Source of the DNA: Eutreptiella sp. 'Long Island Sound 2002'
Lineage: Eukaryota > Euglenozoa > Euglenophyceae > Eutreptiales > Eutreptiaceae
Direction: 5' to 3'
NCBI GenBank assembly: GCA_964036045.1
Contig: OZ038400.1
Span: 12,893,079 to 12,957,078 of the forward strand
DNA: 64,000 nt
The position numbers were made by a program, and so were the translations under genes. Below, piece after piece: positions 10,417 through 64,000 of the stretch. The notes under the pieces are model-generated. The model saw only the letters and a program-made list of their open reading frames with translations. It was not told the DNA's origin and did no database searches. Positions within the stretch are counted from its first letter, which is position 1. Each line of letters begins with the position of its first letter.

Positions 10417-10419
10417 CTA
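10414..10419 (-). promoter_or_regulatory. Gag-Pro stop codon, candidate UAG readthrough site
   Basis: The minus strand reads CAA-UAG-GGA. Both sides are the same frame: gag before it, and an uninterrupted frame after it to 8599 with no AUG before the protease motif. Gammaretroviruses solve the same problem with UAG-GGA readthrough. No structured enhancer was identified by eye. Confidence 0.6.
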
Positions 10420-41780: not shown

Positions 41781-42067
41781 CATGCCACGCATCTCTGCTA
41801 CGCATCTACAGGACCTCTTCTTCTGCCTTTTGAAACATGCCGACGACCGACGACGAGAACCAGCCAAGGTATGACACACCCCACCCCACCAACCACACAC
41901 CGCGAGCACACGCACGCGCACGCACGACAGCCACACCGAGCGCGACCCCCCCCCCCCCAGGCCACCGCCACCAACACGAAGGGCCACACAGCGCACACAC
42001 ACACACCAGGGCCAAGGGGAAGGGCACCCGGAAGACACACCCACCGCAACACCACACCACACCACCA
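41781..42067 (+). other. Transition into C/A-rich repeat, no gene seen
   Basis: The sequence changes from the A-tract modules to C/A-rich, T-poor DNA with ACCACA and CGCACA runs and a C10 tract near 41947. I see nothing else in it. Confidence 0.5.
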
Positions 42068-44640: not shown

Positions 44641-47600
44641 CCCGCCAACACACCACCACCGCACACCACACACCACACACCACGCACCACCACCGCAGGA
44701 CCAGAGGAGGGGGCGACACGCCCGCAAGCAACACAGCCAGGAACAGCGAACACACCCCCCCCCACCACCACCACCCCACCCCGGAGAGACGGGACACCAA
44801 CCACCGCAAACCGCACAGCGAAAAGGGGGGCGGGACGAAAAGGGCCCACGGGGGGCGCCGGCGAGGGACCCAACCTCAGGGGTTTGGGGCCCCCCCCGGT
44901 GACAATATCGGCCCCACCTGAGCACACGCAATAAGGTGGGATACGCCCGGGACCGTTGGTCAGCGGCCCGCGGTGGCACCGGCCTGGGGGGGTGACCAAT
45001 GGGCCTGACCAAGAGCACTCCCCACGGCACGTACTGCGGTTCGGGCCCAGCGAGGGGCTGCGGGTAGGGCACACCGTCCATCGGGGCAGGCAAGAGACGC
45101 GCCTGTCCCGCGAGGACTCCCCAGCGACCCACAGTGTACCCGACCCCGGTGTGGGGAACGGCTGGAGTACCTGGCTACGGAACAGGTCCATGGACGGCAT
45201 CCGTACAACAGAGTTACACCCTGACGGGGAGTGCAAGCACCGGCTCCCCCACGGGGAAACACCAGGGGAAGGGACCCGAGCCGGCGACAAGGACCCCCCC
45301 CCACACACCACAGCCGGGAAGGCCCGGGCACGACACCGCCCCAAGCGACACGGAAAAGAGAGAGAAGGAGGAGGGCACACGCAAAGGGGACAGCAAGGGG
45401 ACGCACCACCAACAGACCCCAGCCAAGGGGGGCGGGGAACCACACAGCCGAGACAGGGGGGGGGGGGCACGACACACAGCCCCCACACCAAACAGGGCCG
45501 CCAAACCACGCCCGCAAAGGCGAGGGCAGGCGCCCCAACGCACCACCAACACACCGCACACACGCCCGAGCGTGCGCACAACACACACCCCCACAACCGC
45601 CACCGACACGAGCCCCACAAGCGCACACCACACACCAAAGCACAGGCGCCGCCCGCACCACACACGCAACACACACAAACCCAAACAACAGGAACCCAGC
45701 AACCCGCCAGGGGGACTGCAGGGCCGCCAGAAGCCGCTAGGACGCAAAGGAGGACCCACCAAGCCCGCAGCCAGGAGTGGCGAACGGCCACACCCAGTAA
45801 CACCCGAACGGCCACGCCCAACACCAGGACCGGGCACTACGACACCCACACCAGCACCGCCACCAACGCCCAAACCGGACGCCACGACACCCTCACCAGC
45901 GGACACACCCGAAACCAGCGGAAGCACCATCGGCAACACCAGCGACCCCAGCACCCACCAACAACAAACCAACACAAAAAGCCACCCAACACTGCCCAAC
46001 GACCGCACCCAACCGATCCGGTCCCCCACCGGCTCGCACCCAGAACCACCGCCACCGACATCCACGCCATCGGAAACACCAACACCGCCAAAAATCAAGC
46101 CAGCACAACACCCTCACCAACACCGTCACCACCGGCACCAACGCCTACGACACCTACGCATGCCACCGCCGGTTCCAGCACCTACATCACCCAAGCCAAC
46201 GGCATCAAGCACACCATCGCCGGCAACACCCCACCATCAGCGTCGCCACCAGCAACCTCTGCCACCGGAGGACACCGAAACCGCCACAGCCACCGCCACC
46301 GCCACAGGTGAGCCAACAAACCACCAAGCCCCGGCCAGGGGAAGCGAGGGCACGCGCCCGGAACCACCATGCAATCCCCGGCGACACCCACACCACCGGC
46401 GCCGCCAACACCACCCTCACCCACGACACCACCCGGAGCAACACCTACGCCACCTACACCAACAGCAGCACCAGCAGACCACACCACCTACTGCACACCC
46501 CCCCAGACAGAGCCACAGAAACCGACCACCGCCCTGAACGCAAGCCGCGGACCACCCACACACAGACCCACGCCAACCACCACCAGCATCGGCAGCGTCC
46601 GAGACGCCGAGAACCATAGCGACACCCACAACGACCTCACCACCGGCATCACCGACACCGACACCGGCAATACGGCCTCAGCACCGACAAACCAGAGCGT
46701 CAACGGCAATCGCCACGGCAACACCGCCCGGTACGACACCATCGGCATCAACAACACCAAGGGAGCCAACACACAGGCCAGCGACACCCATGGGTACCTC
46801 CACCAGGAGTGGCGAGGTCCCACCCCCGCCGTCAGAACACCACCATCCACCAGGGCAACACCTGCAGCGCCCACATCGGCCGCAGCTTCACCGGCGGCGC
46901 CCTCGCCAACACCGTCACCAACACCGCGACGGCCAGCCACGAGTGGCACGCCCGGAACCGCCGACCACCCAAACACAGGCCGCGCCCAGCACCAACACCA
47001 ACAACGCCCACGCCAACAGACCACCACAACACACGCCAACCACCAAGTAACACATAAGGCACCCTCGCTTTCGGCAACACCAACGCCACCAACACCCACG
47101 GCACTATCCACACCACCACCAACCCCACCAACGACGGGCCGAGGTGCCGTCACCCACAACGCCCACAACACCACCACCACGGCCCCGCCACCTAGGGCAA
47201 CCCCACCAACGGCGTCACCAAGGACGCCAGCACGGCTAGCGAACGAACGCCACCGAGCCCTCAGCCAGGAGAGGCGAACGCCCGCACCCAGCAACACCCG
47301 AACGGCCACGCCCAGACCCAGGGCCAGGAACTGCGACACCCGCACCGCCGCCAGCACCCAAACCGAACACCACAGCACCCTCACCAACGGGGACGCCCGG
47401 AACCAACAACGGACCAACAGCGGCCAAGTTACACCCAAAGCGTTCCAACCGCGCCACCCACCGGCCCGCACCCAGAACCACCACCACCACCAGCAACAGC
47501 CACTGACAACCCACACACAGACCCACACCAACCACCAGCAGCATCAACAACATCAGCGACACCGTGAACCATAGCAGCGCCCGCAACGACCTCACCACCG

Positions 47601-49321
47601 GCACCACCGACGGCGCCACCGGCAGTGCGACCTCACCGACAGCAACCCGGAGCATCCCCCATCCCGCGTCCCGGTGAGACACCATCGGCAGCAAGGACAC
47701 CGAGGGGGCCAAGGCCAACCCACCAGCCAACGACGCACGTGGGAACCTCCGCCAGGAATGGCGAGGTCCCCCCTCCGCCGTCAGAACAGGGCAGCACTTA
47801 CAACACCCTACAACGCCAACACACACAGCTCCCCCGGCAGCACCCCCACCAACGCCAACACCGGCACCACCGACAGCGGCAACACGGCGACACCACCACC
47901 CAACCGCAGCAAGGTCACCCTAAACCGCAACCGCAGCAACACCTGTTACTACGGACCCACGGACAGCCGACACCACCAGGACCACAGACCGGCCAAACAC
48001 CAGCCACGAATGGCACGCCCGGAACCACCGAACACCAGCACACAGGCCACCGGACCACCGCGAGACACACCATCGCCCCTAACACCCCTAACACCACCAC
48101 CACGACCCCGGCACAGAGTAACACCTAGGGCGCCCCCATCGACGACACCACCCAGGACACCACCACGGCTGGCGAACAAACGCCACCAGCGCAGCCCACC
48201 AGGCCCCCAACCAAGGGTAGAAACAACAACGCCACACGCCATCGCACCCACCGCATCGAAATCACCCGGAGCAACGTCAACATCAACCAGGGGTCCCCAC
48301 CACCCACCCAAGCAGCACAAAACACCACAGCAACACCACCACACCCTCACCACCAGCGACACCACCGCCAGCACCCTCCGCCAGGAATGGCGAGGAGAAG
48401 GCCCAACAGCGCGGACCCACCCAACGTCCCCGGCACCCTCACCATCGGACCGTCACCACCGGCGCCGACCCCCAACACACCACCGTCACCAACGCCACCG
48501 ACCCCGGACGCAAAAATCACACAGCCCGCACACACGGCACCAGCCAGAGCAACGCCGACACCACTCCCGGCCAACTCACACGAACACCACCGGAAGCACC
48601 ACCGTCGACCGAACACCACGGCGACCCCAGGGTACGAGTCCCCCCCACCATCTGCACGGCCAGCGACGCCGTCACCGGCACCAACCGGAACACCGACAAC
48701 GACAGCCTCACCAACAACCGACACCCCCCTACCGCTGCCACCCACCAGTCACGCCACCCGCCGTCAAAGCCACCCACCAATGCCGCACCCCGAACCACAC
48801 TTACACCCGAAACCGGCACCAGCACGCCCGGCCGAACCGTCAATGGCACCACCGCCATGGCACCGCCTACGCTCACCACCGCCACCACCACCCCACGCGA
48901 GACCAGGAACCCCCGCCGTCGCCAACGGCCTCAACGAGCACCGACACCACCAACACCACCACCGCCGGACAGGGACTACCCACAAACCAGGAACATCTCC
49001 ACCACCAACAACCAATACACCACCCGCGGCACCCCACCATCGCCGACACCACCACGGCACCCATCACACCTCCACCACCGGAGGCGACGTGGGCCACACC
49101 ACCCGTCAACTACAGCACCCTCGCCACCACCGCCACATCCGGCCCACGAACGTTACCGCCGACAACACCACATACGCCCATACGTCACCCACGCCATGCT
49201 CACCGACCATCACCTCGTCATCAGAGACACCAACACCACCGGCGACGACGACAGCGACAACAGCTGACCCACCAGCTAACCACCATCAATCATAGCCCAG
49301 CACCAGCTTCATCTACTCTAA
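44641..49321 (+). repeat. T-poor degenerate repeat region, possible 5' part of the non-LTR element
   Basis: 44800-45240 has more normal composition and no recognised gene. From 45240 on the plus strand is almost only A, C and G (45961-46020 has two T in 60). All three plus frames are largely open as Pro/Thr/His/Gln-rich frames that shift between frames, so none is called. Modules recur: 45771 and 47265 share GGCGAACG..CACCCAG; 46803 and 47752 share GGCGAGGTCCC..CCGCCGTCAGAAC. The CCAGGAGTGGCG core of the 157-bp satellite reappears at 45771, 46803, 47265, 47752 and 48381. Confidence 0.6.
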
Positions 49322-49669
49322 CGCCCATACCACCCTCGCCAACAGCGCCGCCACCGACACAATCATCCACTCCGGCGCCCACACCACCCTCACCACCAAC
49401 ATCACAAACACCACCACCCCCAGGGTCAGGGCCCGCGGGAAAAAGAACGGCAGAGCGAGCACGCCACCACCCGCACGCGTCGCCCACCCTATCGTACACC
49501 GCTCCGCAACACGCCCCCCCTCGCTTCCCCTGACAGGGCGTGCGATCCAGCCCACTGCTGGGAAGACGACTTCGACATCCTGCCGGCCATCCGACACCTA
49601 CTGGCAGCCACGGCCCCGCGCCCACAAGCCCACCAGCAACCCACGGAACCGCAAGAGCCCGACCACCCC

Positions 49670-52600
49670 ATGCCACCACGCTCCATATCCCCCGCGTCCA
49701 CCGCAGACCGGAACGCGGAACACCAGCGAGAGGAGCCCGACCCCGGCCGCGCCGCCACGCCCCCACCGCCCCCCCCCCCAAAGGACATCTACGCCACGCT
49801 GGCCAGCACCCTAGCCCCCATGGACGCCGAGCAGTACTACCAGTCCGTCCAACGAGACCTCCCTGAGGACCACGCGACCCTCCAGGGGTGGAAGCAGGAG
49901 AAAAGGTACGACAACGAGTGGGACACAGAGGAAGACCTTCTCTGGGACGACACCTGGAAAGGCACCGCGGACACCTTCCTGGAGGCAGCAGCCGAAACCT
50001 ACCCCCGCCCGCCCGGGGACACCAGACACGGCCTCCACGCCCTCCTAGCGTTCCACAGCTGGAAACACCGCCACACCGTCACCCTCCACCCCCTCGACCA
50101 CAATCCGCACCGATGGACACCTGAAGACGACGCCACAGCCACCATCACCGTACAGCAAAGCCCCGAGAACCCGGAGGAATACCACATCACCTGGGACGAT
50201 CCGGCACCCCACCCCCCCACCTCCCCCACCCTCCCAGATGTCTTCGCCGCCATCAGTGCAGAGCTCCAGGAGGCCAAAGCCCCCCACCAACTGGACGAAG
50301 ACATGCCCCAGGCACCATCACCATCAACCACACAAGACCAACCCCGCACAGAGCCCCTCACCCACCCCATCACCACAATGGAGCTCCCCCCACAACACCG
50401 CACCACCCCAGACCGAAACGGGTTTCGAGACCTGCCGCGGGAATGGGCGGTCCACAACGGCACACTCCGATGGGACGAAATCACACCGGGCCTCCAGGCC
50501 ATCCGCCTCCACTCAATCACAGAGCCCACCACCACCTGGGCACTACCGACGGACCGCCACCACCTCCTCCTCACCGTCCAAGGCGATGCCACGATCACAC
50601 CCACGGAAGGAGACCCCGTAACAGCAGCCGCCGCCCACGCCGTCCACATACCCCCGCAAGCATCGTCGGCACCTATGACGGTGCATCCAGGCCCCACCCC
50701 TTGGCAGGCCATCGTCGTCACCTACCCCGCCCCCAATGACCACACACATACCTGGCAGCAACGATGGGAGGACATCCGAGGGGACCTCCTCCAAGAACAC
50801 CTAGGGCTCACACGCACCCACCACACCCTACAACCGATACGAGGAGTAGGTCAAGCGTCACACGGCATACACGCCCCGGGAGTATGGGCCTACGCCACAC
50901 CCATAAACCCACAAGCAGCGGAGGACATCAAGACCGCCCTATCCATCCAGCAAGCCCAGACCCAAACCCCGCACCGCAACACCCAACGAGGCTACACAAT
51001 TTGGTGGGCGTACCAAGACCATGACACCCTCACCCCCCAACCGGGGGCCCCGCCTCTAGACACCAACACCACCGCCCTCCTCCAAGCCGCAACAGCGGCA
51101 GCCACACAGGTAGGAGCCCCGGAAACCTGGGGCCCACAATACCTGGTCGAAACCAAAGTGGCGCCCCACGCGAAGGGCCAAGACAAGCCCCCAACACCGA
51201 AGCCGCTCCACCCCCCGCTCAAGCTAGACCCGACGGAGCACACCCCCCAGGATGAATGGGCGACCCACTACATCATCCCCCACACCACCACCCGCAAGAA
51301 CGACGCCGCCAGAATTACCGTCACCCGCCACCTCCCCCACACCACACAGGTGTATGAGCTGACGGCCCCCAACGTCCTCGTCACCCGTCGCCGACACGAC
51401 GAGCGATACACCATACAGGCGGAAGGGGCCGCCGCGACCACCCTGTACACATGGGCAACACGGGGGGACCTCCCACACCCCACCCTCCACCACGCCCCCT
51501 CCTGGCCCACCCCCTTCCACACAGCGGACCGCCCCAACAAGAAGCCCAAACACACGGGTGTGCACACCCACGCCCAGGAGGCCCAGCACCGACACGAAGC
51601 GAGGCGCAAGGCCCGCACCCTCCACGACGACCACACCATCCCCCGCATCGGCGCCCCCCCCGCCAGGGTATCAGATACCACCCACAACCGCACGATCACA
51701 GGCATCACCACGGACTGCCTGAACCCAGCGGCGTCGCGGGCAGACGCCGTATGGATCAGCGAAGGGCGCTCCCACACACGGGCGGTGGCGCGCCTCCACA
51801 ACATCCAACCCCACAAACTCCAGCGCGCCGTTGGACCCTTCGCCGTACACGTCACCCCGTACGGCATCGACCACCCCCGGTGTGAGCACTATGACCCGCC
51901 CTGCTCCACCCCATGCACCTCGCCCCTCCGCCAACCGCTGCCGGCCCCCACCATCACGGGCAACATGTACCTGGGCACCGTACCGGGAGACCCGGGCATA
52001 TACATCCTGCCCAGGTCCAGGGAACACGCCATCCCCCTCCACTGTGTGGAGTCCCTCGCCCTGGGACCACCCCCACCAAAACACCAACACCAACACATCC
52101 CGGGGGACAAACGGACACAGGCCCCAGACGGGGGAAAAAAGGCCCACCAACGCGCCCTGGCCCACATCACCCTCCACCCCGCAGCCCACCTACCAAAGGA
52201 CTTCGGCACGGAGCGCCACATCGTCCTGGAGGGCCAAGCCCACCACATCATCACCGCCGCCCTGTACACCCTCGCCGCCCACGAACGCCACTGGGACCCC
52301 ACAACCATCCCAGCAATGCCCCCACCGCCCCAAGGCCCCAACGATCCCGTCACCCCCTTCCACATCGATCAACTCCTAAGCCGCAAGGCCCCCCCACACC
52401 TCCACCCCTCCAGGATACCACTAGCCATTGCATCGTGGGACACCCTGGACACCCCCCCCCAACAACCCGCCATCCACATCCTCAAAGCGGACACCCAATG
52501 GTGGGTCCTCCACTGGGCACACGGAGTCCTCATGGCGGCCCAGGCCTATACCCCGGAAATGGACCCGGAAGACCCCCCACGGGGCCAGCAGCGACTCCTC

Positions 52601-53554
52601 CAAGCCACCACCCTCACAGGCCGCGAAGGCGCCCCCTGGGAAGCCCTCCACACAGCACTCTACTGGGCTCAAGGCTCCCCCAACGGCCCGGACACACCGG
52701 AACCCACAGAGGCCTGGGTCAGGCAGGCCAAGGCCATGAGGAACTACCACCTACACCACCCCTTCGACGACAGCCCCGCCGCACTGCCATGGCCAACAGA
52801 TCCCCCGGAGACCGTACGCAAGCTCGCCGACATCGTACGCAGCCACGCGAAAGCGAAAATGCAAACACCGGCAGAACCCCCACTGAGGGATCCAGACCAG
52901 CAAGCAACGCACCCCTTCTTCCAACCCCATGCCCCCCCAGCCCCGCCACCTCCAGTCCCACCCAAGCGAACGAGACGACAAAAGGGGGCACCCGCCCCCA
53001 GCCAAGCCGGAAAAGCAGCAACCTCCCGACCCCCCGCATCCCACCCGACCCACCCGACGAACCCAGACCAAGCATCCTCGTCATCCTCCCTCCCACCACT
53101 ACCACCGCCCCACCCGGACCAGACATCCTCATCATCCTCCCTCCCGCCACCAGCACAGGCCCCGCCCAAAGCGTACCCGAGGTTCGAAAAAGGTGCGAAG
53201 GTCCAACAGCCCTTCCGCAACGACCACACAGGCGACTGGATCTGGTGTGAGGGCACGATCCAGTACCGCCTCAAGGGACAAGGGGACAACGGGGGGCCAC
53301 AGATCCGGGTAATCTGGCACCGCCAAAAGGAGCTAGACCAGGGCAACAGCGCCCCGGACAAACCACTCGGCGACACCCTGGAACTCACCAGCGCCCACCC
53401 CATCCGGCTCCGCACCGAAGAGAACAAAGCCCACACAGGCACCAAATACACTGGGGAGCTCCCCCCGGAGTGGAGCCAAGGCCTCCCCCCGCCGCGCCTA
53501 CCCAAACGCCCACAAACCGGCAAAAAGTCCCCAACCCCCAGTCCCCCTCCCTGA
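49670..53554 (+). CDS. ORF1 of the non-LTR element, function unknown
   Basis: 1294 codons from the first ATG to a UGA at 53552-53554. The frame is open without ATG from 49322, and the stretch just upstream (CDPAHCWEDDFDILPAIRHLL) looks protein-like, so the true start may be upstream or use splicing or a non-AUG codon. No family is recognised with confidence. Seen in order: acidic, Trp-rich N-terminus; a beta-rich stretch near residues 290-350 (HHLLLTVQGDATITP ... HIPPQ ... WQAIVVTYP) resembling a cupin-type barrel; several globular, His/Pro-rich blocks; a Pro/Ser-rich linker near 1080-1160; a compact domain near 1165-1230 (FEKGAKVQQPF ... WIWCEGTIQYRL ... IRVIW) resembling an SH3/Tudor-like barrel; a basic Pro-rich end. 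In LINEs ORF1 usually binds RNA; that is inference here. Confidence 0.7.
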   Translation: MPPRSISPASTADRNAEHQREEPDPGRAATPPPPPPPKDIYATLASTLAPMDAEQYYQSVQRDLPEDHATLQGWKQEKRYDNEWDTEEDLLWDDTWKGTADTFLEAAAETYPRPPGDTRHGLHALLAFHSWKHRHTVTLHPLDHNPHRWTPEDDATATITVQQSPENPEEYHITWDDPAPHPPTSPTLPDVFAAISAELQEAKAPHQLDEDMPQAPSPSTTQDQPRTEPLTHPITTMELPPQHRTTPDRNGFRDLPREWAVHNGTLRWDEITPGLQAIRLHSITEPTTTWALPTDRHHLLLTVQGDATITPTEGDPVTAAAAHAVHIPPQASSAPMTVHPGPTPWQAIVVTYPAPNDHTHTWQQRWEDIRGDLLQEHLGLTRTHHTLQPIRGVGQASHGIHAPGVWAYATPINPQAAEDIKTALSIQQAQTQTPHRNTQRGYTIWWAYQDHDTLTPQPGAPPLDTNTTALLQAATAAATQVGAPETWGPQYLVETKVAPHAKGQDKPPTPKPLHPPLKLDPTEHTPQDEWATHYIIPHTTTRKNDAARITVTRHLPHTTQVYELTAPNVLVTRRRHDERYTIQAEGAAATTLYTWATRGDLPHPTLHHAPSWPTPFHTADRPNKKPKHTGVHTHAQEAQHRHEARRKARTLHDDHTIPRIGAPPARVSDTTHNRTITGITTDCLNPAASRADAVWISEGRSHTRAVARLHNIQPHKLQRAVGPFAVHVTPYGIDHPRCEHYDPPCSTPCTSPLRQPLPAPTITGNMYLGTVPGDPGIYILPRSREHAIPLHCVESLALGPPPPKHQHQHIPGDKRTQAPDGGKKAHQRALAHITLHPAAHLPKDFGTERHIVLEGQAHHIITAALYTLAAHERHWDPTTIPAMPPPPQGPNDPVTPFHIDQLLSRKAPPHLHPSRIPLAIASWDTLDTPPQQPAIHILKADTQWWVLHWAHGVLMAAQAYTPEMDPEDPPRGQQRLLQATTLTGREGAPWEALHTALYWAQGSPNGPDTPEPTEAWVRQAKAMRNYHLHHPFDDSPAALPWPTDPPETVRKLADIVRSHAKAKMQTPAEPPLRDPDQQATHPFFQPHAPPAPPPPVPPKRTRRQKGAPAPSQAGKAATSRPPASHPTHPTNPDQASSSSSLPPLPPPHPDQTSSSSSLPPPAQAPPKAYPRFEKGAKVQQPFRNDHTGDWIWCEGTIQYRLKGQGDNGGPQIRVIWHRQKELDQGNSAPDKPLGDTLELTSAHPIRLRTEENKAHTGTKYTGELPPEWSQGLPPPRLPKRPQTGKKSPTPSPPP

Positions 53555-53596
53555 CGGGGCAAGGGCCGAGGGCACAAGCCTCCACAGCCCCGGCCC
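53552..53596 (+). promoter_or_regulatory. Candidate UGA-CGG readthrough signal
   Basis: ORF1 ends UGA followed by CGG, the trinucleotide known from 'type II' viral readthrough sites (for example tobraviruses). Eight bases after the stop, GGGCCG (53563-53568) can pair with CGGCCC (53591-53596), a possible stem as expected for that class. The frame beyond is open and contains the endonuclease start before any ATG. Confidence 0.6.
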
Positions 53597-56500
53597 GCCC
53601 CCACCGAGGCCACCATCAACCTCCTCGACCTCAACCACCCGGCCGTCACATACTCCAAGGACGCCACAACCGCCCTCCAAGAGCTCCTGATGGCACAGGG
53701 GCCGGGGTGGGTCCCCCACCTCCTCACCTTCCAGGAACAAGGCCTACAGCGCGACGACCCCCCGGAAACCACCCCCATGTATACCCCGGACCAGAAAGCG
53801 TACAAATGCTACTGGCACAAGGGGACCCCCCTATACGCCCAAACCGGCATCCACGTCCACCTCGTCCACCACCTCAGCGTCCCAGGGAGGCTAGGTGTCT
53901 ATGAGGTCGTCGGGGACGGATGGCAACTCAACGTCATCAACACCCACGTCCCCTTCGGCGAAGCCACGGAACCCTTCCTCCAGGCCCTGGCCGAGGCGTA
54001 CCGCCAAATGGCCATGCTCGCCCCCACAGTCATCATCGGCGACATGAACGCCGCCCCCACCCCAGCGGACCGAGGAGGACAGGCCACACCCCAGGACCAA
54101 GCAGTCCGCGACACCATCGAAATGCTGGGGCTCGTGGACCTAACAGCCAGCCTCGAAGGCCAACCATCCCACTTCCCCCACCAAACGGATGCCGCCCCAT
54201 CCCGCATCGACGTATGCTATGGCGACCCCACCACCATCATCCGAGCGGAGGCCCGATATGGACCCCTCCCGCTGGGACCCACAGGCCATAGCCCCCTGCA
54301 CATCCGCCTCACCATCCCCAACCTTCCCCCCAGCCCCCCAGAAGATGCGGACCAAGGCCTACCACCCCCCCTGAAGATGCCCCCGCTGCATGACAAGCAT
54401 GCCTGGTCCCAATATCACAGGGCCATAGACCGCGCCCGGCGCATCCAACCAGACCCCACCGACCTACTCACAGCCATGCGCACGGCCGCCGTCGCCTGCG
54501 GCTTCCAGCAACACCCCCACACAGACGACGACCAACCACCCACGGCCCTGGGGAACATGCTCCATGACCTCTGGCATGCGAAACAACAACTGGCGACCCT
54601 CCTCCACACCGACACCCCCCAAACCCGCCGCCAGATACACCACTGCAGGACACACATAGCCCAAATCAGGGCGGACCTGCAGCGGTGGCACATCCACAGG
54701 CAACAGCGCATCGCCCAGGAACACGAACGGTATGCGCAACACGAACTCCCCTACAAGGCCATCCGCCACCTCAACGACGCCATGACCGATACCGGCCACC
54801 GCACCATCACCACGGTCCGGCAGGAGGACGGCTCCCTCACCAACGACCCAGCCACAGTGCTCCAAGCCACCCAAGACAGCTTCCTCCGGCAACACACCCC
54901 CACCCAAGACACACTGGACCCGGACACCCAGGCCAGAATCGACCGCCTCCCTCGGGTCTTCAACCACGCCCAGAGGAGGCACCTGGAAAAACGCCCCTTC
55001 ACCATCCACGAAGTCCGGAAGGCCATCCACAGTCTCCGGCAACACAAAACCCCAGGCTACGACGGCCTCCCTGCAGAGGCATACTACCACCTCCCCGCCC
55101 ACCTCCTCCGCGTCCTCGCCCACCGCCTCTGGGACATCGTCACGGGGCGGACCCCCCTGCCACCAGACTGGGCAAACGTTGTCCGCCCCCTCTACAAAAA
55201 AGGGGACTGGGCGAACCCGGACAACTGGCGCCCCATAGTCTGTGCGGTCACTGAGGTCAAAATCGTCTGGACCATCCTCCTGCGCCGCATCCGCCCCCAC
55301 CTGGACCCCCACATACCAGCGAGCCTCTGGGGGGCCATCCCAGGCCGCTCCCCACACGAGGCCATCTTCCTCCAGGACACCATCGCGGACATGGACCCGG
55401 TGGACCTCATCATCGCCTCCCTCGACGTCAAGGGAGCCTTCCCGAACACCCCCTGGCTCCTTCTAGAAGCGGTGTGGAAACGCCTAGGCCTCCCCTTCTA
55501 CAACTTCACCTCCGACTACATCCGCACCCGCAAATACACGGTCCGCACAGGAGCAGGCCTCACCCCCTTCCTGGAGCCAGGCAGCGGGGTCCCCCAAGGG
55601 GGAGCAGAGGGCCCCTTCCTGTACCTTCTAGTGACGCTCCCCCTGGCCCTCGCAATCGAGCAGGATTACCCGGCCTACGCACCCTACCCCCTCCTCTCCC
55701 CCCTGGTCGGCTTCGCGGACGACACCAACCTCACCGTCGCGCACACCCCACACGACCCCCATGCCCCGGACCCCGGACCAACGGTCACCCAACAGGCCAA
55801 CGACTTACTGGACGTGACCGTCTCCTACCTCTCCCACAACAACCTCATCGTCCACCCCACAAAGTCAGTGGCCATGATCAAGGGGTCTGCCACACCTCCC
55901 ACCCTGGGGCCACAAGGGCCCCCCATGCAAGTCGTGACGACCACCACCCACCTGGGGGTAGTCCAGGCCGCCAACCCTGAGGACGCCACCCTCCCTCCCA
56001 AGTTGCAGTCACACCTCGCCCATCTCCCCAGATATGCGTCCCCGACCACCAAGGCCCTCTCCCTGTCCCACCAGAGCCTGGCGTACTACCTCACCGGGGT
56101 CTTGAACGCCTCCATAGGCTTCCAAGCACTCCACCTAACACACCCCACCACCGCCCTCCAGCCGGCCACACGCGCCGTGACCAAGGCATGGGCAGCACAC
56201 GGGGGCTGGCCGGCCTCCATACCCACCCGCGCCATCCGAGCGGCATGGCCCCACTATGGAGACGCCATAGGGGACGAGGTGAAAGCGGCCTATACCAGAC
56301 ACACCGCCCTCCTCCTTCACCGCATGACCCACAACCACTCACCGGAGGTCCGCGAGGTCACCGCCATCCGCCTCCAAGCCGCACAACGGGCCCGCAACAC
56401 ATGCCCGCGCTGGGTACTCCACCAGACGGGCATGCCCACCAACATGAACACCCGCCTGTGGAACCACCTGCCGCTTCTGCTCCCATCCCCACACCACGCC

Positions 56501-58903
56501 ATACTCACCAACCACACGTGCCCACAGAAAGGGCCACTGGCGGTCCTCTGCGGAGACCTCCACCACCACCCCAAGGGCACCATCCACACCATAGACCTTG
56601 TCGGGGCCTCCATCACCGTAGTATACGTCACCCTCGCCCAAATGCGGGTCCTGCACCACAGCGGGGCACACCACACCCCCTTTCTACAGCTACCCGAATG
56701 GCCACAATACCGCCTCTTCCACCACTACCTCACACAGACGGCACGAACAGCGGGACACACTCTACCGGGCAGCAAAGACATGCGCAAAGCCTACCGAGAA
56801 TTCACAAGACAACACCCGCGACCCATCCCAGAGACACCGCCCTACGCACCCACCGGATCGAAACACGAACCCGTCCCCCCAGTAACGGGCCCAGTCCCAC
56901 CACTAACCCTACTACTGGCCCCGAATGAAGCCAAACCCACGCAGACCACCGTCATCCACCACGGGGCAAAATGGCGCATACCGAAACACCACATGACCGC
57001 CCGAGACCTACCAAAGGTCCCCCAAGATTCCCAGAGCATGCCACGCACATGTTGGGCCTGTGACCCCGAGGCACCAACCGCACCATGGCCCGTGCTACAC
57101 CTCATAGCACGCCACCACACCCACCCCACGACCCACCTACCACCACAGGCCTACGCATGGATAGCCCCATGGTTCCACCGCACCGACACTAACCCCACGG
57201 TAGCATGGAACCCCGACCACGCGCCCAAATGGCTCTTCACCACTACACCCACATGGCCCCGCCCCGACCCGGCAGGGGTCGCCATCCGTTACAGCATGTA
57301 CGAGCCAGGCAGAACGGGCAAACACGAGCACCCCTACTATCCACTCCACCACTCCTGCCACACACCGGAGCACCGAACACAAACCCTCACATGCCACGAC
57401 CTAAACCCCGACACAGCCTACATCCTCCACTACATCTACTCCTACCTCACACAAGGACAGCCGGAGCAGGGACTCATAGCCCTGTCCCCCCAAGCAAAGC
57501 ACATCATCTCCAAAGGAATAGGGGTGTACGCCACCCCCATCCTACAGCCCACAACCCCAGTAGCCCACCTCGCCACGGGCCTTGCCATATACGCCTACCT
57601 GCCCATGAACCCATGCCGCCTCCCACAACCATCACCGGCGGACCGGCTCTTCTTCACCGACGCCTCAGGCGAATCCGCCCTCACGCCCATCACCGGGGGG
57701 GCCACCCTGCAACTAACCCACACCGGGGAACACTACCACATGGACCACCACACGGGCCACACCACCTATGGGGCCTCTTCCCACGGGGAGCTAGGGGCCA
57801 TGGCCGACGCCATCACCGAGGTCGCGGCCCACCTACCCGCCCACTCCCCGCACATCGTCCGGGTCTGGTTCGTGGTAGACGCCACTGTCGACACGCACCT
57901 GCTCCTCCGCATAGCAAGGCAACCACTTCACAAAGCAACCGCGACGAGCCTCGGCACCCAGGCACTGCTACTCTGGAAAGCCCTACGCAGCCTTCCCCCC
58001 TACGTCCAACTCCACATCGTGAAACAAGAGTCCCACAGGCACCAATACGGAAATGGTAAGGTCGACAACCAGGCAGTACACCAGCGCACAACACACCTAC
58101 CAGCCCTCCAGATCCCTGACCTCGGCCGCAACCACACACACCTCCAACACGTGCCCCCTGTACCCGAGCCCCATCAGACCCCGGACTGGGTACCAGAGGA
58201 CGCCCCCTATTCCTCCCACGACAGAGCGTACCACTACCCCAACCCCGTCCAACATCTAGCCCGTGTCCTCGGCGACGCAGACAGCCGGGCGCACATCCAG
58301 GAGCTCCAGGACAGACTGCAAGTCCCCCTCTACCACTCAGCGCTCCGCCCAGCAAACGTCCCAGCCCACCTCCAGAAACGACGCATCCAGCTCCTCAGGG
58401 AGCAACTGCCTTTCCTCACCAGGGTCGCCAGATGGCTCGCCCGCAAGCACATCCACGTCCCCGACGAACACACCCGTTGCCCATGCGACCACACCACCCC
58501 GGAGGACTGGGAACACTTCAAGAAATGCCCCCTCCATACGGACAGGGACACCCTAGTGGGCTGGTCCCCGGCGGAAACCCTGCGGCAACACGAAGGATGG
58601 CCAGCCCACAGCCACGCACACCAGGCCACCGAACACCTCTTCCGGGACCCCCTGATCAAAGAAGCCACCATGAGAGGGGCAGTGACACAGGCCCTGCACC
58701 GACACCTCACCAAACACACGGAAAGCCCCATGGAAGCAGCAGCACACCTCCAGCTAGAAGCGGTCCGCAGAGCAGCAGCCCAAATGGTACACCGCAAACA
58801 CCTCCTGCTAACACACGCGGAACAACTCACCAACCCCACCGCCAGGGAACACATGCAGCGTCTCATCCATTACCATGCCGTGCATGACCCAGACGTCCAC
58901 TAA
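53555..58903 (+). CDS. ORF2: endonuclease, reverse transcriptase, RNase H
   Basis: The frame is open from the codon after the UGA to a TAA at 58901-58903. The first ATG is 53690, but the endonuclease domain already begins at 53615 (INLLDLNH), so the ATG is inside the domain. Numbered from 53690, the exonuclease-endonuclease-phosphatase motifs are QEQ (near 17), NTH (83), GDMNA (116), RIDVCYG (173) and GHSPLH (200). Reverse transcriptase has KKGDW..NWRPI (500), SLDVKGAF (577), GVPQGG (633) and the FADD catalytic box (674). A thumb and linker follow. RNase H has TDAS (1322), SHGELGAM (1364), VVDAT (1394) and YGNGKVDNQA (1455). A CCHC-like finger (CPC..H..H..CPLH) sits near 1598. It would nick target DNA and copy the element RNA onto it. 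Confidence 0.92.
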   Translation, partial: RGKGRGHKPPQPRPAPTEATINLLDLNHPAVTYSKDATTALQELLMAQGPGWVPHLLTFQEQGLQRDDPPETTPMYTPDQKAYKCYWHKGTPLYAQTGIHVHLVHHLSVPGRLGVYEVVGDGWQLNVINTHVPFGEATEPFLQALAEAYRQMAMLAPTVIIGDMNAAPTPADRGGQATPQDQAVRDTIEMLGLVDLTASLEGQPSHFPHQTDAAPSRIDVCYGDPTTIIRAEARYGPLPLGPTGHSPLHIRLTIPNLPPSPPEDADQGLPPPLKMPPLHDKHAWSQYHRAIDRARRIQPDPTDLLTAMRTAAVACGFQQHPHTDDDQPPTALGNMLHDLWHAKQQLATLLHTDTPQTRRQIHHCRTHIAQIRADLQRWHIHRQQRIAQEHERYAQHELPYKAIRHLNDAMTDTGHRTITTVRQEDGSLTNDPATVLQATQDSFLRQHTPTQDTLDPDTQARIDRLPRVFNHAQRRHLEKRPFTIHEVRKAIHSLRQHKTPGYDGLPAEAYYHLPAHLLRVLAHRLWDIVTGRTPLPPDWANVVRPLYKKGDWANPDNWRPIVCAVTEVKIVWTILLRRIRPHLDPHIPASLWGAIPGRSPHEAIFLQDTIADMDPVDLIIASLDVKGAFPNTPWLLLEAVWKRLGLPFYNFTSDYIRTRKYTVRTGAGLTPFLEPGSGVPQGGAEGPFLYLLVTLPLALAIEQDYPAYAPYPLLSPLVGFADDTNLTVAHTPHDPHAPDPGPTVTQQANDLLDVTVSYLSHNNLIVHPTKSVAMIKGSATPPTLGPQGPPMQVVTTTTHLGVVQAANPEDATLPPKLQSHLAHLPRYASPTTKALSLSHQSLAYYLTGVLNASIGFQALHLTHPTTALQPATRAVTKAWAAHGGWPASIPTRAIRAAWPHYGDAIGDEVKAAYTRHTALLLHRMTHNHSPEVREVTAIRLQAAQRARNTCPRWVLHQTGMPTNMNTRLWNHLPLLLPSPHHAILTNHTCPQKGPLAVLCGDLHHHPKGTIHTIDLVGASITVVYVTLAQMRVLHHSGAHHTPFLQLPEWPQYRLFHHYLTQTARTAGHTLPGSKDMRKAYREFTRQHPRPIPETPPYAPTGSKHEPVPPVTGPVPPLTLLLAPNEAKPTQTTVIHHGAKWRIPKHHMTARDLPKVPQDSQSMPRTCWACDPEAPTAPWPVLHLIARHHTHPTTHLPPQAYAWIAPWFHRTDTNPTVAWNPDHAPKWLFTTTPTWPRPDPAGVAIRYSMYEPGRTGKHEHPYYPLHHSCHTPEHRTQTLTCHDLNPDTAYILHYIYSYLTQGQPEQGLIALSPQAKHIISKGIGVYATPILQPTTPVAHLATGLAIYAYLPMNPCRLPQPSPADRLFFTDASGESALTPITGGATLQLTHTGEHYHMDHHTGHTTYGASSHGELGAMADAITEVAAHLPAHSPHIVRVWFVVDATVDTHLLLRIARQPLHKATATSLGTQALLLWKALRSLPPYVQLHIVKQESHRHQYGNGKVDNQAVHQRTTHLPALQIPDLGRNHTHLQHVPPVPEPHQTPDWVPEDAPYSSHDRAYHYPNPVQHLARVLGDADSRAHIQELQDRLQVPLYHSALRPANVPAHLQKRRIQLLREQLPFLTRVARWLARKHIHVPDEHTRCPCDHTTPEDWEHFKKCPLHTDRDTLVGWSPAETLRQHEGWPAHSHAHQATEHLFRDPLIKEATMRGAVTQALHRHLTKHTESPMEAAAHLQLEAVRRAAAQMVHRKHLLLTHAEQLTNPTAREHMQRLIHYHAVHDPDVH

Positions 58904-61900
58904 CCCGCTCCGCGCCCCGCACGCGCCCCCCGTCTCCATCCACAGGTCTCCAAGGCACCACCACAGCGCCCCGAGACCCGTCTCGCACCCAAGAAGCCAC
59001 CCGGCACCGCCCAGTCCGGCCGAACCCAGCCAGGGCCAACCATCCATCGACGTAGACGCGCAAGACCCCGGCAGCCCATCCAGCCCACCCCCCCCGGACC
59101 CGGGACACCCTCCCCTCACACCGGCCACCATCCGCGACCCCGACCTCCTCCGAGCGACCCTCCAAGACAGGGCCCCGACCACCCCCCTGGGCTGGTACCG
59201 CCTACAAGAGGACTGGACCAAGCTCACCGTCAAAGCCCTCCGGGACCTGACCACCCAAGGCAGCGGCCTCCACGAGACCATAGTAGACCTCGTGCTCTGG
59301 CGAGCCCGCAAACACACCCAGGGCCAGCCCATCTGGATCCCCCCCATCGAGTGGGGCCAGGCCCTGACGCACGACACCGGCAGCAACGTCACGCGTCGAG
59401 GGACCGTACGCCTACGGCGGGCCCAAGCGGAGACGGACCACCCAGCGGACCCGAACCACCCGGAGCAGTGGGAACAGGCCACCGCGCCCAACCGCGACAC
59501 CGCCCTCCGCGCCGCCGGCCTCCGCACCCCGGACGACGACCTCCCCCCCCCACCTACAGACAGTGACCACGCCCCGCCGGAGGTCTGGGTTACAGTCCTC
59601 GAGCGCGGCCACTACTACGTGATAGCCGCTATGGCTACGTCCCACGGCCCGCAATGGATCATCCAGGGGACAGACACCATGTTCGCCCCGGAGACCGCCC
59701 CACCAGGGGCAGTGGGGGACCCCACCACCCAGCACAGGATCCTCAGGGGTCTCCTCCAGCCAGGGGACACGCCCCCAGCCCGCGCCCTGGCCCAAATCAC
59801 CTCAGGGAAGGCGGGCTACCACCTGGGATTGTCCATGCTCTGCCTAACCCACTGGATCCAGCGCCACTGGCCACCCACGGGGACCGTGCCCTGGGTTTGG
59901 GCCATCCCCACCGCCCACACACAAGTCGAAGCAGGCCCGGACACACGACCAAACCCCCCCCCCAGGCCGCAGCAGTCCCTCACCTGCGGGTACCACGCCA
60001 TCCACAGGGTCCTCAACCGCGCGGGTCTTAGCCCAAAGCTAGCATGCCCCCTTCCCACCACTGACCAAGAGGTCAACCAGATACGAACGCTCGTCTGCGA
60101 AATCCTTGCCGCGGCAGCAGAAGACGGCAAGCTTCTCCTCCAAACCGCCCGGCCTACAACTGCCCACGCAAGCGCGCAGCAAGCGGACACATACACCGGC
60201 GCAGCACAACCCCCCGCACAATCCCCGCCCATGCCCCCCCCCTCTCGCTGCTCAACCGGAGACCCACACACGCCCACTATCGCGCGCACCCCCGGGCCCC
60301 GCGACACGGGCCTCCCCCACCCGCCCGAACACCAGCACACGCCCGCCACACACCCACCCACCGGCCACCCTTCACCGCCCCCCACACTCGACAACCCACA
60401 CACACCCGCCAAGGGGAGCCCCACGCCCCGCGGCACGCCCACCCCACCCAGTGGCCCGCCCACGCCCCCCACACACACCCCAGAGGACCCAGGCCCACCC
60501 CCCCCGGCCCCTGAATGCAGCCCACGCGAACTGTTCCCCCCCGCTGACACAAACCCACACGACCTCGCACATTGCAGGACCCGGGCCCAGCCGAGCCCAG
60601 AAAGAGAAGGCCGCAGCCCCGCGCCTCCCTCCCCCGCCGCAGCCGACCAGATCGGCCCGCCGGGCCGCCAGGTCACGACCGGGCCCCCCCAGCCGCCCGC
60701 CCCCAACCTACAACCCGGGGACATGCCCTCCATCCTCCCCGCCGTGGCCGCGGCAGAAGCCGCCGCCCGCAAGCCCGCCCGCATCACAGCCCAACCCGCG
60801 TCCACCACCTCCTCCTCGTCCTCAGCCTCGTCCACCTCCTCCACCTCATCCTCCGACCCCCCCCTCCCCGCCAAACTCATCCTCAAGGCCACGGCGAAAG
60901 CCAAAGCCGCGGCCGCACGCACCAACCCCCCAACCCCCACACAGGCGACTCAGGCACCCCGGCAACCCACCAGTACGACCCCCGACCCGGCATCGACGCC
61001 CTCACACCTCCGGACAGAGGTACTCCTCAACCTGGAACCGGACCCCAACCCCAAACCCGACCCCAAACCCAAACCGGACCCCAACCCCAAACCCAACCCC
61101 AAACCCAAGCCGGCGCCCACGCGACCACACACAACACCGCATACGCAACGACACAAAACCACCCGATACCACCCCCGCCCAGGCCCTCGCCCAAGCCAGG
61201 ACCCCCCACCCACCACGACCCGCGCCCCCCTCCCGCCGGCACCCACCACCACCGCGGAGACGGCCACCCAGCACGACCCCCTCCAAACCCTCATCAAAAT
61301 CCCCGTCATCAAACGCCCCGTCATCCATCCCCCACAAACCACCACCACCGCCGGCCAAACCGACCCAGGGACGTGGGACCCCTCAACCATCGTCACCGTC
61401 AAGCCCGCCCCCCAACCCTTCCTCCATGCCCACCACATAGTGCAGCCCCGGGGACTGCCCACGATGCCCAACCCCCCACCCCCACAAGGGGGACCGGAAA
61501 ACCCACAAGGACTCCATGGGCCATACCCGCAACACCAACCCCACCACTACACACACCACCACCACCAGCGGCCCCACCACCACCACTACCAACACCACCC
61601 CCACCACTACCACTGCCCACCGCCCTACCCCACCGGGCCGCAACCCCCCGTACACCAACAGCACCAGCGGACGGGATGGCAGCCGCCGAACGCCCCGCTC
61701 GCATACCCACCCCCCCCGTACCAGCCACCACCCCCGTACCAGCCGTACCCCCGCGGCCACCATCCGATGGCCGAGGGGGCCCCATGGACGACGGGGGATC
61801 TCCCCCCCCAACCAGCACCGCGTGACGCCCCGTACCCCCCCGGCCACCATCCGATGGCCGAAGGGGCCCCAAGGACGACGGGGGACCTCCCCCCCCAAGC

Positions 61901-62978
61901 GGCGCCGCGCGAGCCCCCCCAGAGGCCGCCGACGCTTCCGGACTGGCCCGACTCGAGCGACGAGGGCCGGTCCCGCAAGCGGCGGCGCTCCCGCTCCCCC
62001 CCCGCACGGCACACTCGCCCACGGCGCCCACACTCCCACCGCGCCTCAACCACCCACTCGCGCCGCTCCCGCTCCCCCAGGTACCACCACGACCCCCAGG
62101 GACCCCGCTCCCGTCGCTCCCGCTCCCCCGGGCTCCACCACGAGCGCCAGCGCCGCCCCATGTCCCCCTCCCCCTCCCCCCACCGGCCACCCAGCCCCCG
62201 CCACCACCACTCCCGCTCCCCCCGACGCAGCCAGGCACGCCGCCACCGCCCCACGTCCACCTCCCCCTCCCCCCACACGCCCCGCCGGGCTCCCCGTTCC
62301 CCCCGCCACCCGTACCCATCCACCACCCCCAGCCCCCGCCACCACCACTCCCGCTCCCCCGGACGCCACCGAGCGCGCCACCGCCGCCCCATGTCCACCT
62401 CCCCCTCCCGCTCCCCCCTCCGCCCGTACCCGTCCTCCACCCCCAGCCCCCGCCGCCGCCGCTCCCGCTCCCCCGGGCACCGCCACCCCCGCCACCACCG
62501 CAGGTCCACATCTTCCCCCCGCCGCTCCAGGACCCCAGGCACGGACCCCTCCCCCCCCCGGGCCCCCGCCTACCTCGCTTGGTGGTCTCCCTCCGCTCTG
62601 CAGGAGCTCCGCCGCTGGGTGAAATGGGCCGGGGGAGCGGGAAGACACAGAGGGGTACACACGGTGCATACCTTCGAGGAGGTGCGCACCCGCACCCCCG
62701 CAAACCCCAATGAGGCCGCCCCGGAGGCCATCATGCCGCAAGCGGCATGGGAGGCCCTCCTCCGCGATGCGGTCCAGGGCCTCCGCCCCCCCTACACCCC
62801 CCAAGCCCTCCGCCGGTGGCTCCAGGCCACCCACCCCCAAACCTGGGCCACCGGCGCCCCCTCCCCACCCCGCCCCTCCCACCACCACCACACCAGGAAG
62901 GGGCAGGACAAGGGCAAGGGAAGGGCAAGGGACACCAAGGACCACACAGGCAAGAGGGCACGGAAGGACCCCAAGTGA
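58875..62978 (+). CDS. ORF3: Ulp1/C48-like cysteine protease region with RS-rich tail
   Basis: 1367 codons, ATG overlapping the end of ORF2 by 29 bp in the +1 frame, which suggests reinitiation or frameshift coupling. After a Pro-rich lead, residues 100-385 are globular: a helix like the Ulp1 entry region (HETIVDLVLW, near 133), GHYYVIAAM with His246, IIQGTD with Asp267, then PQQSLTCGYHAI with Gln366/Gln367 and Cys371. The order His-Asp-Gln-Cys matches clan CE (C48) SUMO/ubiquitin-like proteases; OTU proteases have Cys first. The rest is low complexity: Pro/Thr/Ser, PNPKPDPK repeats near 722-745, His-rich near 890-915, and a strongly Arg/Ser-rich RSRSP domain at about 1028-1228 as in splicing factors. 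It ends with a small globular piece and a Lys-rich tail. Protease assignment is by motif only. Confidence 0.7.
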   Translation: MPCMTQTSTNPLRAPHAPPVSIHRSPRHHHSAPRPVSHPRSHPAPPSPAEPSQGQPSIDVDAQDPGSPSSPPPPDPGHPPLTPATIRDPDLLRATLQDRAPTTPLGWYRLQEDWTKLTVKALRDLTTQGSGLHETIVDLVLWRARKHTQGQPIWIPPIEWGQALTHDTGSNVTRRGTVRLRRAQAETDHPADPNHPEQWEQATAPNRDTALRAAGLRTPDDDLPPPPTDSDHAPPEVWVTVLERGHYYVIAAMATSHGPQWIIQGTDTMFAPETAPPGAVGDPTTQHRILRGLLQPGDTPPARALAQITSGKAGYHLGLSMLCLTHWIQRHWPPTGTVPWVWAIPTAHTQVEAGPDTRPNPPPRPQQSLTCGYHAIHRVLNRAGLSPKLACPLPTTDQEVNQIRTLVCEILAAAAEDGKLLLQTARPTTAHASAQQADTYTGAAQPPAQSPPMPPPSRCSTGDPHTPTIARTPGPRDTGLPHPPEHQHTPATHPPTGHPSPPPTLDNPHTPAKGSPTPRGTPTPPSGPPTPPTHTPEDPGPPPPAPECSPRELFPPADTNPHDLAHCRTRAQPSPEREGRSPAPPSPAAADQIGPPGRQVTTGPPQPPAPNLQPGDMPSILPAVAAAEAAARKPARITAQPASTTSSSSSASSTSSTSSSDPPLPAKLILKATAKAKAAAARTNPPTPTQATQAPRQPTSTTPDPASTPSHLRTEVLLNLEPDPNPKPDPKPKPDPNPKPNPKPKPAPTRPHTTPHTQRHKTTRYHPRPGPRPSQDPPPTTTRAPLPPAPTTTAETATQHDPLQTLIKIPVIKRPVIHPPQTTTTAGQTDPGTWDPSTIVTVKPAPQPFLHAHHIVQPRGLPTMPNPPPPQGGPENPQGLHGPYPQHQPHHYTHHHHQRPHHHHYQHHPHHYHCPPPYPTGPQPPVHQQHQRTGWQPPNAPLAYPPPPYQPPPPYQPYPRGHHPMAEGAPWTTGDLPPQPAPRDAPYPPGHHPMAEGAPRTTGDLPPQAAPREPPQRPPTLPDWPDSSDEGRSRKRRRSRSPPARHTRPRRPHSHRASTTHSRRSRSPRYHHDPQGPRSRRSRSPGLHHERQRRPMSPSPSPHRPPSPRHHHSRSPRRSQARRHRPTSTSPSPHTPRRAPRSPRHPYPSTTPSPRHHHSRSPGRHRARHRRPMSTSPSRSPLRPYPSSTPSPRRRRSRSPGHRHPRHHRRSTSSPRRSRTPGTDPSPPRAPAYLAWWSPSALQELRRWVKWAGGAGRHRGVHTVHTFEEVRTRTPANPNEAAPEAIMPQAAWEALLRDAVQGLRPPYTPQALRRWLQATHPQTWATGAPSPPRPSHHHHTRKGQDKGKGRARDTKDHTGKRARKDPK

Positions 62979-64000
62979 GGGCAGGCACACGCAGGGACAG
63001 GGCGCCGGAAGCGGCACCACATGGGGTCAGGACACCACCCAAGAACCAGGAAGGAACGGGAACGGGGACCAAGACACGGAGGAAAAGGGCACCACGACAG
63101 CCCCAGAGGACACGAGACCAAGGCACAGGCCCCCAGGGAGGGCAGCCCCACGGACCGTCACGCGACCACACCATGGGCTACAAGGGCCGGGCTGCGCTAC
63201 CGTCGCGGTTTGACGCAGAGTATTGCTACGGGGGCTTGATCTCGGCTGGTCTCACGTCCGTGAGGGCGTCCGTCACCAACGTGTTGCGTCCAGTGGAGGA
63301 ATGGCACTGCGGCGGCGCACCGATCCCGTCCATGATGAATATCGAGCATCGCAAGGGGAAGCGAAACGCTGTGATCGATCGCGAAGGCTTTGGTGCTGCT
63401 GGACGGTGCCCCCCTTCAACGCCATCTCCGAGCGCCGTGAAGACTGGAAGTACCAAGGATACTACCGATGCCCCGGACCCCAGCAGTCCAGCACCGGAGA
63501 TATGGACATCCCCCTGACCCTACAGTGTGAGCTCATCCCTACCGGCGGCACCGACCCGGACCCTGCCAGCGCAGCCGAGCTGCAGTGAAAGCCATTCGCC
63601 ACTCAAACAGCGTTCGGAAGCCACCTCCACCGTCCGACTCCTGATGTCTGTTTGTCTGCCTTGGAGAAGGAACGCTTTTCCTACACCCCGAGTACACCTG
63701 CCTGTCTGCGAGGCCCGGTGAAGATTGAGTCCATGGGTGAGAGTCAGTGTGCACGCCCCAAGGACACCGTGATCATTCAGCGGAATTTCCCGAAGACCTA
63801 ACCGACCCACACAGGCCAGGCTGACCTCCACTGACCCACCGCGGCACCACGCGAGACCACGGCACACCACACCACAGCGCGCCACAGAGCAACGCACCAC
63901 AGCACGACGCGACGCGACGCGGCACAGAGCGGCACAACACGACACAACTGACCCTAACCTGAGGGACTAACCGAAGCCAGCCACCGCACACCCGGGAAGG
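62979..64000 (+). other. 3' flank of the non-LTR element, unresolved
   Basis: Composition becomes more balanced after about 63170. A short open frame at 63223-63588 ends in a plausible globular-to-acidic C-terminus (SERREDWKYQGYY, CELIPTGGTDPDP), but it starts without support and has no recognised domain. No poly-A tail, LTR or target duplication marks the end of the element. From 63840 the sequence is again C/A-rich with GACGCGACGCG repeats. Confidence 0.4.

Follow-up and report, generated by a model that had tools for sequence, protein, structure and literature searches.

A putative type II readthrough junction, UGA-CGG with a 3' hairpin, between ORF1 and ORF2 of non-LTR retrotransposons in Eutreptiella

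Proposed expression of ORF2 by stop codon readthrough

A 64,000-nt stretch of the genome of Eutreptiella sp. 'Long Island Sound 2002' (contig OZ038400.1, positions 12,893,079 to 12,957,078 of the forward strand; hereafter the window) contains a large retrotransposon without long terminal repeats (non-LTR), whose first two open reading frames, ORF1 and ORF2, lie in one frame and are separated by a single UGA codon. This stop is followed by CGG and by a predicted RNA hairpin, and the endonuclease of ORF2 begins, as judged from a structure model, before any AUG. The ORF2 enzyme is probably made as a C-terminal extension of the ORF1 protein by type II stop codon readthrough. A preliminary description of this DNA had proposed such an ORF1-ORF2 fusion, made by stop suppression, and the proposal is supported by the conservation of the junction in two families of elements, the readthrough itself being predicted from the sequence.

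According to this proposal, most ribosomes would terminate at the UGA at 53552 and release the ORF1 protein, and a minority would insert an amino acid at the stop, aided by the 3' CGG and by the hairpin, which its 8-nt spacing would place at the leading edge of the ribosome. The readthrough ribosomes would then continue into a fusion of ORF1 protein, endonuclease and reverse transcriptase, and the ratio of the two products would be controlled as it is for the polymerases of viruses with type II readthrough. The readthrough, how often it happens, which amino acid is inserted and any later cleavage of the fusion are all inferred. A wider scheme, to which we lean with modest confidence, is that at least two families of large, very abundant non-LTR elements in one genome use UGA-CGG-hairpin readthrough to make a 'Gag-Pol' fusion that carries endonuclease and reverse transcriptase into a particle built on the ORF1 protein, and that stop-start reinitiation adds a third protein.

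It is understood only in part how elements of the long interspersed nuclear element (LINE) type produce ORF2 protein in the right, small quantity. If the proposal is true, LINE-type elements would use programmed stop readthrough to express ORF2 and would have retained this strategy since the divergence of the two families; the non-LTR class would gain a distinct mechanism and an ORF1-ORF2 fusion. The junction, of about 150 nt, can be tested directly.

Stop codon, frame and missing AUG

A recheck of the sequence agreed with the earlier account: TGA occupies 53552-53554 and is followed by CGG, the same frame then stays open for 45 codons (53555-53689), the first ATG is at 53690, and the peptide INLLDLNH is found at 53615-53638. 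The ATG at 53690, 138 nt past the first base of the stop, is the only one of any frame in 53350-53700. No AUG overlaps or adjoins the ORF1 stop in the way that one does in a stop-start junction of the type known from the silkworm element SART1, and reinitiation at an AUG that would keep the predicted catalytic Asn of the endonuclease is excluded because no such AUG exists. The codon-position pattern persists across the 45 post-stop codons (third position C 0.62, T 0.02). UGA as a general Trp or sense codon was rejected, as ORF1 and ORF2 together contain 69 TGG and no TGA codons for Trp; ORF3 has 23 TGG and no internal TGA.

The frame shared by ORF1 and ORF2 contains one stop in 3193 codons, and the remaining five frames contain 22, 58, 62, 68 and 93. 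However, only about 4% of third codon positions are T and long open frames are present in all six frames, so that openness alone is weak evidence and the weight must come from conservation.

Type II readthrough consists of UGA followed by CGG or CUA, mostly with a 3' RNA structure that often takes the form of an extended stem-loop starting some 8 nt past the stop, and in many type II viruses the extension adds the polymerase (PMC3542737; this and the other papers are cited here from excerpts). The preliminary description had assigned UGA-CGG with a 3' stem to this viral class, which matches the published definition (PMC3542737). The junction combines UGA-CGG, a predicted stem-loop at 8 nt and conserved zero-frame coding after the stop.

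N-terminus of the endonuclease

Over its first 274 residues, ORF2 has a match to endonuclease family PF03372 (E 1.7e-6), a family missing from the match list when the whole of ORF2 is scanned. In the structure model, the first AUG comes only after the first strand and the predicted catalytic Asn (residue 27, 53633-53635), so the earlier claim that the endonuclease begins before any AUG is borne out at the level of the model. If readthrough takes place, automatic gene callers begin ORF2 45 codons late and drop the catalytic residue, as in the cluster P0001 (758 members), which starts at ATG 53690 with MAQGPGW.

Conservation of the junction in two families

The window lies on a 38.7 Mb contig of a 2.28-Gb assembly of 2205 contigs, and copies were sought in the same assembly. 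A search with 53400-53800 gave 1572 candidates, the best 40 of which were scored; these family-1 copies are 99-100% identical and include that of the window. TGACGG is present in 40/40, and the variable sites are 53428, 53496, 53615, 53688 and 53691, none of them within 53552-53601. Because the copies are recent, all they show is that other copies share the stop. Among protein relatives of ORF1, P0013 (46 members), P0014 (1), P0015 (35), P0016 (509) and P0017 (1; 79% identical) end at the junction stop, and P0022 (1 member) has Ser there and continues into ORF2, with stretches that look frame-shifted. Thus, by manual reading, five of the six ORF1 relatives that are in frame at the junction end there, and the matches P0018-P0021 either depart from the frame or stop short of the junction. 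No fused ORF1-ORF2 protein was found at E 1e-3 among 7961 candidates scored (lengths of about 1756-5588 aa).

A second family is represented by P0005 to P0009, which are 44-52% identical to ORF2. P0008 spans the junction with Trp where the other copies have the stop; P0007 likewise passes from ORF1 into ORF2, though via another frame (manual reading). A genome search with P0008, in which the best 43 of 32162 candidates were scored (44 rows), gave copies with 78-88% amino-acid identity, in addition to P0008's own locus, L046 (100%). Of the 44 rows, 26 have a single TGA as their only internal stop, 16 have additional stops and 2 are free of stops; in five rows the frame stays open for 3466 residues apart from one TGA. 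For the junction, 43 loci were read and 42 cover it (L074 does not); 35 of the 42 stretches of 220 nt are distinct, and L058 and L059, which score alike, may be duplicates. The stop codon is TGA in 41/42 and TGG in one (L046), and the six bases that follow are CGGGGC in 41/42 and CAGGGC in one. From the stop to the Asn, the frame is open in 42/42, with an in-frame ATG in 0/42 and an out-of-frame ATG in 2/42. The Asn is kept in 40/42 (Lys in two) and the Met matching 53690 in 42/42.

The preliminary description had asked what related copies carry at these positions, and the alignments gave results consistent with its view. UGA-CGG and the core of the stem are present in both families, at about 50% protein identity, and no AUG precedes the endonuclease; an in-frame AUG in that interval occurs in none of the 42 family-2 junctions and not in the window, and none of the 40 close copies has a variant that creates one. 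A sense codon in place of the stop, named there as contrary evidence, is limited to the TGG of one family-2 copy and to the Ser of the single-member P0022, which looks frame-damaged.

Hairpin 3' of the stop

The RNA of the window is predicted to fold as UGAC (GGGGC) aa (GGGCCG) a (GGGC) 13-nt loop (GCCC)(CGGCCC)(GCCCC). The earlier suggestion of a 6-bp GC stem 8 bases downstream was exact as to position; this stem does not stand alone, however, and is part of a 15-bp hairpin that starts 1 nt after the UGA. The region 53552-53631 folds at -36.9 kcal/mol (z -3.91), with 0/200 dinucleotide shuffles as low, and the same hairpin is retained in a 221-nt context (z -2.45; 1/200 shuffles as low). Folds as low occur in 3/958 80-nt windows of ORF1 and ORF2, and in 13/1358 when ORF3, which contributes most of them, is included (the junction counted). 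TGA trinucleotides of any frame are followed by a fold as low in 2/54 cases, including the junction's own.

In family 2, the commonest fold is UGAC (GGGGC) ca (GGGCCG) gaca (CGGCCC)(GCCCC), which is predicted alone in 28/42 junctions, small variants of it occurring in others. Both families have the helices of 5 bp and 6 bp and a spacer of 8 nt, as CGGGGCAA in family 1 and CGGGGCCA in 38/42 copies of family 2. The top of the hairpin differs: family 2 has a 4-nt loop there, and family 1 a further helix of 4 bp with a loop of 13 nt.

RNA constraint versus protein conservation

Protein similarity between the families extends through the stretch from the stop to the AUG. Between the window and L075, identical residues use the same codon in 241/454 cases in ORF2 and in 40/103 at the end of ORF1; by residue, the share is 21/47 for Gly, 8/32 for Arg, 37/87 for Pro and 19/61 for Ala. 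In the stem, with the 3' arms matched manually by structure, the same codon is used in 7/8 shared residues. Random synonymous recodings, for which family-1 codon use was applied to both families, fold as low in 4/1000 cases for family 1 (mean -21.9, sd 4.8) and in 28/1000 for family 2 (mean -15.8, sd 4.0). The codon sharing in the stem and the rarity of low-folding recodings therefore favour a constraint on the stem at the RNA level, as far as can be judged from these sequences.

Several observations weigh against the readthrough proposal or against the constraint on which it leans. The automatic alignment puts the 3' side of the stem against a later PAP, with 0/3 codons matching, and the shared peptide RGxGR..RPAP could explain part of the sameness of the stem. 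No compensatory double changes were seen: of 462 family-2 pair cells, 449 are Watson-Crick, 3 are GU and 10 are broken, and the stem is thus backed by sameness, not by covariation. In family 2, the 32-nt signal varies only a little less than its flanks (18/1344 versus 119/5021 site-copies, p 0.02, a value that is generous because the copies are related; gapped alignment, flanks of 60 nt on either side), and without three indel copies the figures are 17/1248 and 111/4680 (p 0.03). In pairwise comparisons of the window and four long copies of family 1, nonsynonymous changes mostly equal or exceed synonymous ones (11 versus 6 in ORF1 and 9 versus 7 in ORF2 for L041 and L042); copy counts alone say little on selection, because recent copies drift. 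In each family, one relative has a sense codon in place of the stop (Ser in P0022, TGG in L046). Finally, in Tca2, an LTR element of Candida albicans with UGA between gag and pol and a potential 3' pseudoknot, the junction sequence alone gave no readthrough in yeast (PMC2194720); since this UGA with its potential pseudoknot failed in a yeast reporter, a predicted structure can mislead.

Alternative explanations

ORF2 might start independently at a non-AUG codon past the ORF1 stop, by leaky scanning, internal entry or reinitiation, for example at AUC 53615, where GCCACC-ATC looks like a good initiation context. The in-frame codons before the Asn in the 42 family-2 junctions also include candidates, namely 83 ATC, 3 ACG, 2 CTG, 2 AGG, 1 AAG and 1 GTG. 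However, 29 of the 40 scored family-1 copies carry at 53615 GTC, which is not one base from AUG, and AUC 53615 was rejected as a general start on this ground; besides it, the in-frame near-cognates in the window are only two AAG codons. A non-AUG start, moreover, leaves the shared UGA-CGG, the hairpin and the unbroken zero frame unexplained, and we consider it improbable. That ORF2 starts at AUG 53690 itself, what precedes being conserved ORF1 or spacer sequence only, agrees with the gene-caller starts, which are at 53690 in P0001 and at the matching Met in P0005 and P0006 (469 and 425 members), and with the presence of this Met in every family-2 junction and in 39/40 scored family-1 copies. 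Yet such a start would, according to the structure model, deprive the endonuclease of its first strand and of the catalytic-Asn position, L028 lacks the ATG (53691 T to A), and the stretch upstream is similar as protein between the families, all of which makes this reading very improbable.

The stop could also be removed from some transcripts by splicing or RNA editing, and retroelements can use alternative splicing. An intron that takes out the stop had been listed in the preliminary description as contrary evidence; such an intron with frame-keeping GT..AG ends is absent, although 11 frame-keeping GC..AG pairs lie across the stop. The whole stretch is kept in the 40 scored copies, which would be expected too if only unspliced RNA were copied. 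Splicing across the stop appears unlikely from the sequence, and removal of the stop by either process is decidedly improbable. The dinoflagellate spliced leader, a motif that may not be the host's, gave 0 matches with up to 3 mismatches, a result that says nothing for or against trans-splicing at this element. A stem directly 3' of a UGA is also found in some selenoprotein genes, and the UGA might accordingly be read as selenocysteine with the hairpin as a redefinition element; no Rfam family, the selenocysteine insertion sequence included, reached the gathering score in the 64-kb window, and this alternative is highly improbable. An ancestral single ORF1-ORF2 polyprotein, in which the stop arose in this copy or lineage only, would fit the one sense-codon relative of each family, but it has a negligible probability given TGA in 40/40 and 41/42 copies of two families and ORF1 clusters of 46, 35 and 509 members that end there. 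The same tallies led to the rejection of a copy-specific nonsense mutation.

Comparison with known systems

The viral type II signals (alphavirus, tobravirus, pecluvirus, furovirus and coltivirus) resemble the junction in having UGA-CGG, an extended stem-loop about 8 nt 3' and an extension in the same frame (PMC3542737), but the element described here is a chromosomal non-LTR retrotransposon with a hairpin of 11 to 15 bp, and its readthrough is a prediction. The gag-UAG-pol arrangement of gammaretroviruses is also alike, as a structural protein and a reverse transcriptase share one frame with one stop between them and an RNA structure with an 8-nt spacer (PMC3542737; PMC5009743); it differs in using UAG-G and a pseudoknot in an LTR element, whereas UGA-CGG, a hairpin and an APE endonuclease are found here. 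Tca2, discussed above, is similar in its UGA and potential 3' pseudoknot (PMC2194720).

Among non-LTR elements, the strategies described are the stop-start of SART1, the unconventional reinitiation of LINE-1 and StopGo/2A (PMC5972666), and frameshifting in HeT-A, with TART also named (PMC5009743). SART1 couples the translation of ORF1 and ORF2 and has a downstream structure, but does so by reinitiation at an overlapping stop-start (PMC5972666), which has no counterpart here as no ATG is near the ORF1 stop. Human LINE-1 differs in that its ORF2 follows a 63-nt spacer and reinitiation of an unconventional kind has been proposed (PMC5972666). The published strategies, as excerpted, are thus reinitiation, frameshifting and 2A (PMC5972666; PMC5009743). 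The preliminary description had remarked that LINE ORF2 is more often made by reinitiation or shifting and that readthrough would be unusual. None of the papers among the literature matches listed reports that a stop between ORF1 and ORF2 of a non-LTR element is read through, a weak absence as subscription papers were mostly outside the coverage. Within the literature covered, the signal itself is of a known viral kind and what is new is its presence in a non-LTR element.

The ORF2/ORF3 junction has a SART1-like stop-start overlap, since the first ATGs of ORF3 (58875 and 58884) lie just before the ORF2 stop TAA at 58901-58903 (geometry from the window copy only). This suggests that ORF3 is made by termination-reinitiation, and one element may therefore use two different recoding junctions.

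Layout of the element and neighbouring sequences

The plus strand of the window is C/A-rich from about 40 kb onward and contains the three long ORFs there (Table 1). The reverse transcriptase and the N-terminal APE-like endonuclease of ORF2 identify the element, by sequence comparison, as an APE-type non-LTR retrotransposon. Searches of genome-contig and viral-contig collections gave no relatives of it.

Table 1. Positions of the predicted features of the element in the window
Feature	Position	Strand	Description
ORF1	49820..53554	+	Stop-to-stop frame 49322-53554, stop TGA; start most likely ATG 49820, possibly 49670
UGA-CGG	53552..53557	+	Predicted leaky stop and next triplet of type II readthrough motif; 40/40 scored copies; family 2
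ORF2	53555..58903	+	Frame of ORF1; endonuclease, reverse transcriptase and RNase H-like motifs; no AUG before 53690; stop TAA
3' hairpin (predicted)	53556..53601	+	15 bp in three helices, loop 53574-53586
Hairpin helix 1	53556-53560 with 53597-53601	+	5 bp, begins 1 nt past UGA
Hairpin helix 2	53563-53568 with 53591-53596	+	6 bp GGGCCG, begins exactly 8 nt past UGA
Hairpin helix 3	53570-53573 with 53587-53590	+	4 bp
APE-type endonuclease domain	53606..54319	+	First strand = residues 18-27 (53606-53635); first Met = residue 46 (53690)
Reverse transcriptase domain	55199..55879	+	Pfam RVT_1 PF00078, ORF2 residues 549-775, E 2.8e-15
Probable RNase H-like domain	57626..58108	+	FTDASG, HGEL, VVDA and GNG..D motifs
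ORF3	58875..62978	+	Frame other than that of ORF2; RS-rich C-terminal part; stop TGA

The residue matching ATG 49820 is the start of the ORF1 relatives P0013, P0015 and P0016, and that matching 49670 is the start of P0014. Upstream of the first ATG of ORF1, 49322-49669 comprises 116 open codons, including the acidic segment CWEDDFDILPAI; it is probably not translated with ORF1, because one base, at 49435, is missing from the sister copy L044. No Pfam match was found for the ORF1 frame, the end of ORF1 included, or for ORF3, including its start. The RNase H-like part of ORF2 has no significant Pfam match either, and its structure model is too weak for use (pLDDT, the model's confidence score, 55.3); we take it to be RNase H-like from motifs that we recognised, and these are invariant across four aligned sequences. 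The N-terminal part of ORF3 (59100-60131) contains SLTCGYHAIHRVL, which is reminiscent of a Cys-protease-like motif, and the protein's C-terminal half has many SR/RS dipeptides and much proline.

Upstream of ORF1, 40300-49300 is about 9 kb of C/A-rich sequence with a long array of units containing 'CCAGCCAGGAGTGGCG' (about 42000-44600, by eye); if part of the element, it would be an unusually long 5' region. On the other side, 3' of ORF3, translation of 63190-63560 gives EYCYGGLISAGLTSVRASVTNVLRPVEEWHCGGAPIPSMMNIEHRKGKRNAVIDR, which resembles the end of a pyrophosphate-dependent phosphofructokinase; if this identity holds, the element is inserted into a piece of a host gene or carries one.

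Elsewhere in the window, a huge 29-bp minisatellite occupies 3111-3816 and continues from 13734 onward (about 650 overlapping register copies per family). On the minus strand, LTR-retrotransposon-like ORFs are found at 1144-13632 and 38576-39952, which by eye are gag-like and reverse transcriptase/RNase H/integrase-like; of their frames that were checked, four end in TGA and one in TAG.

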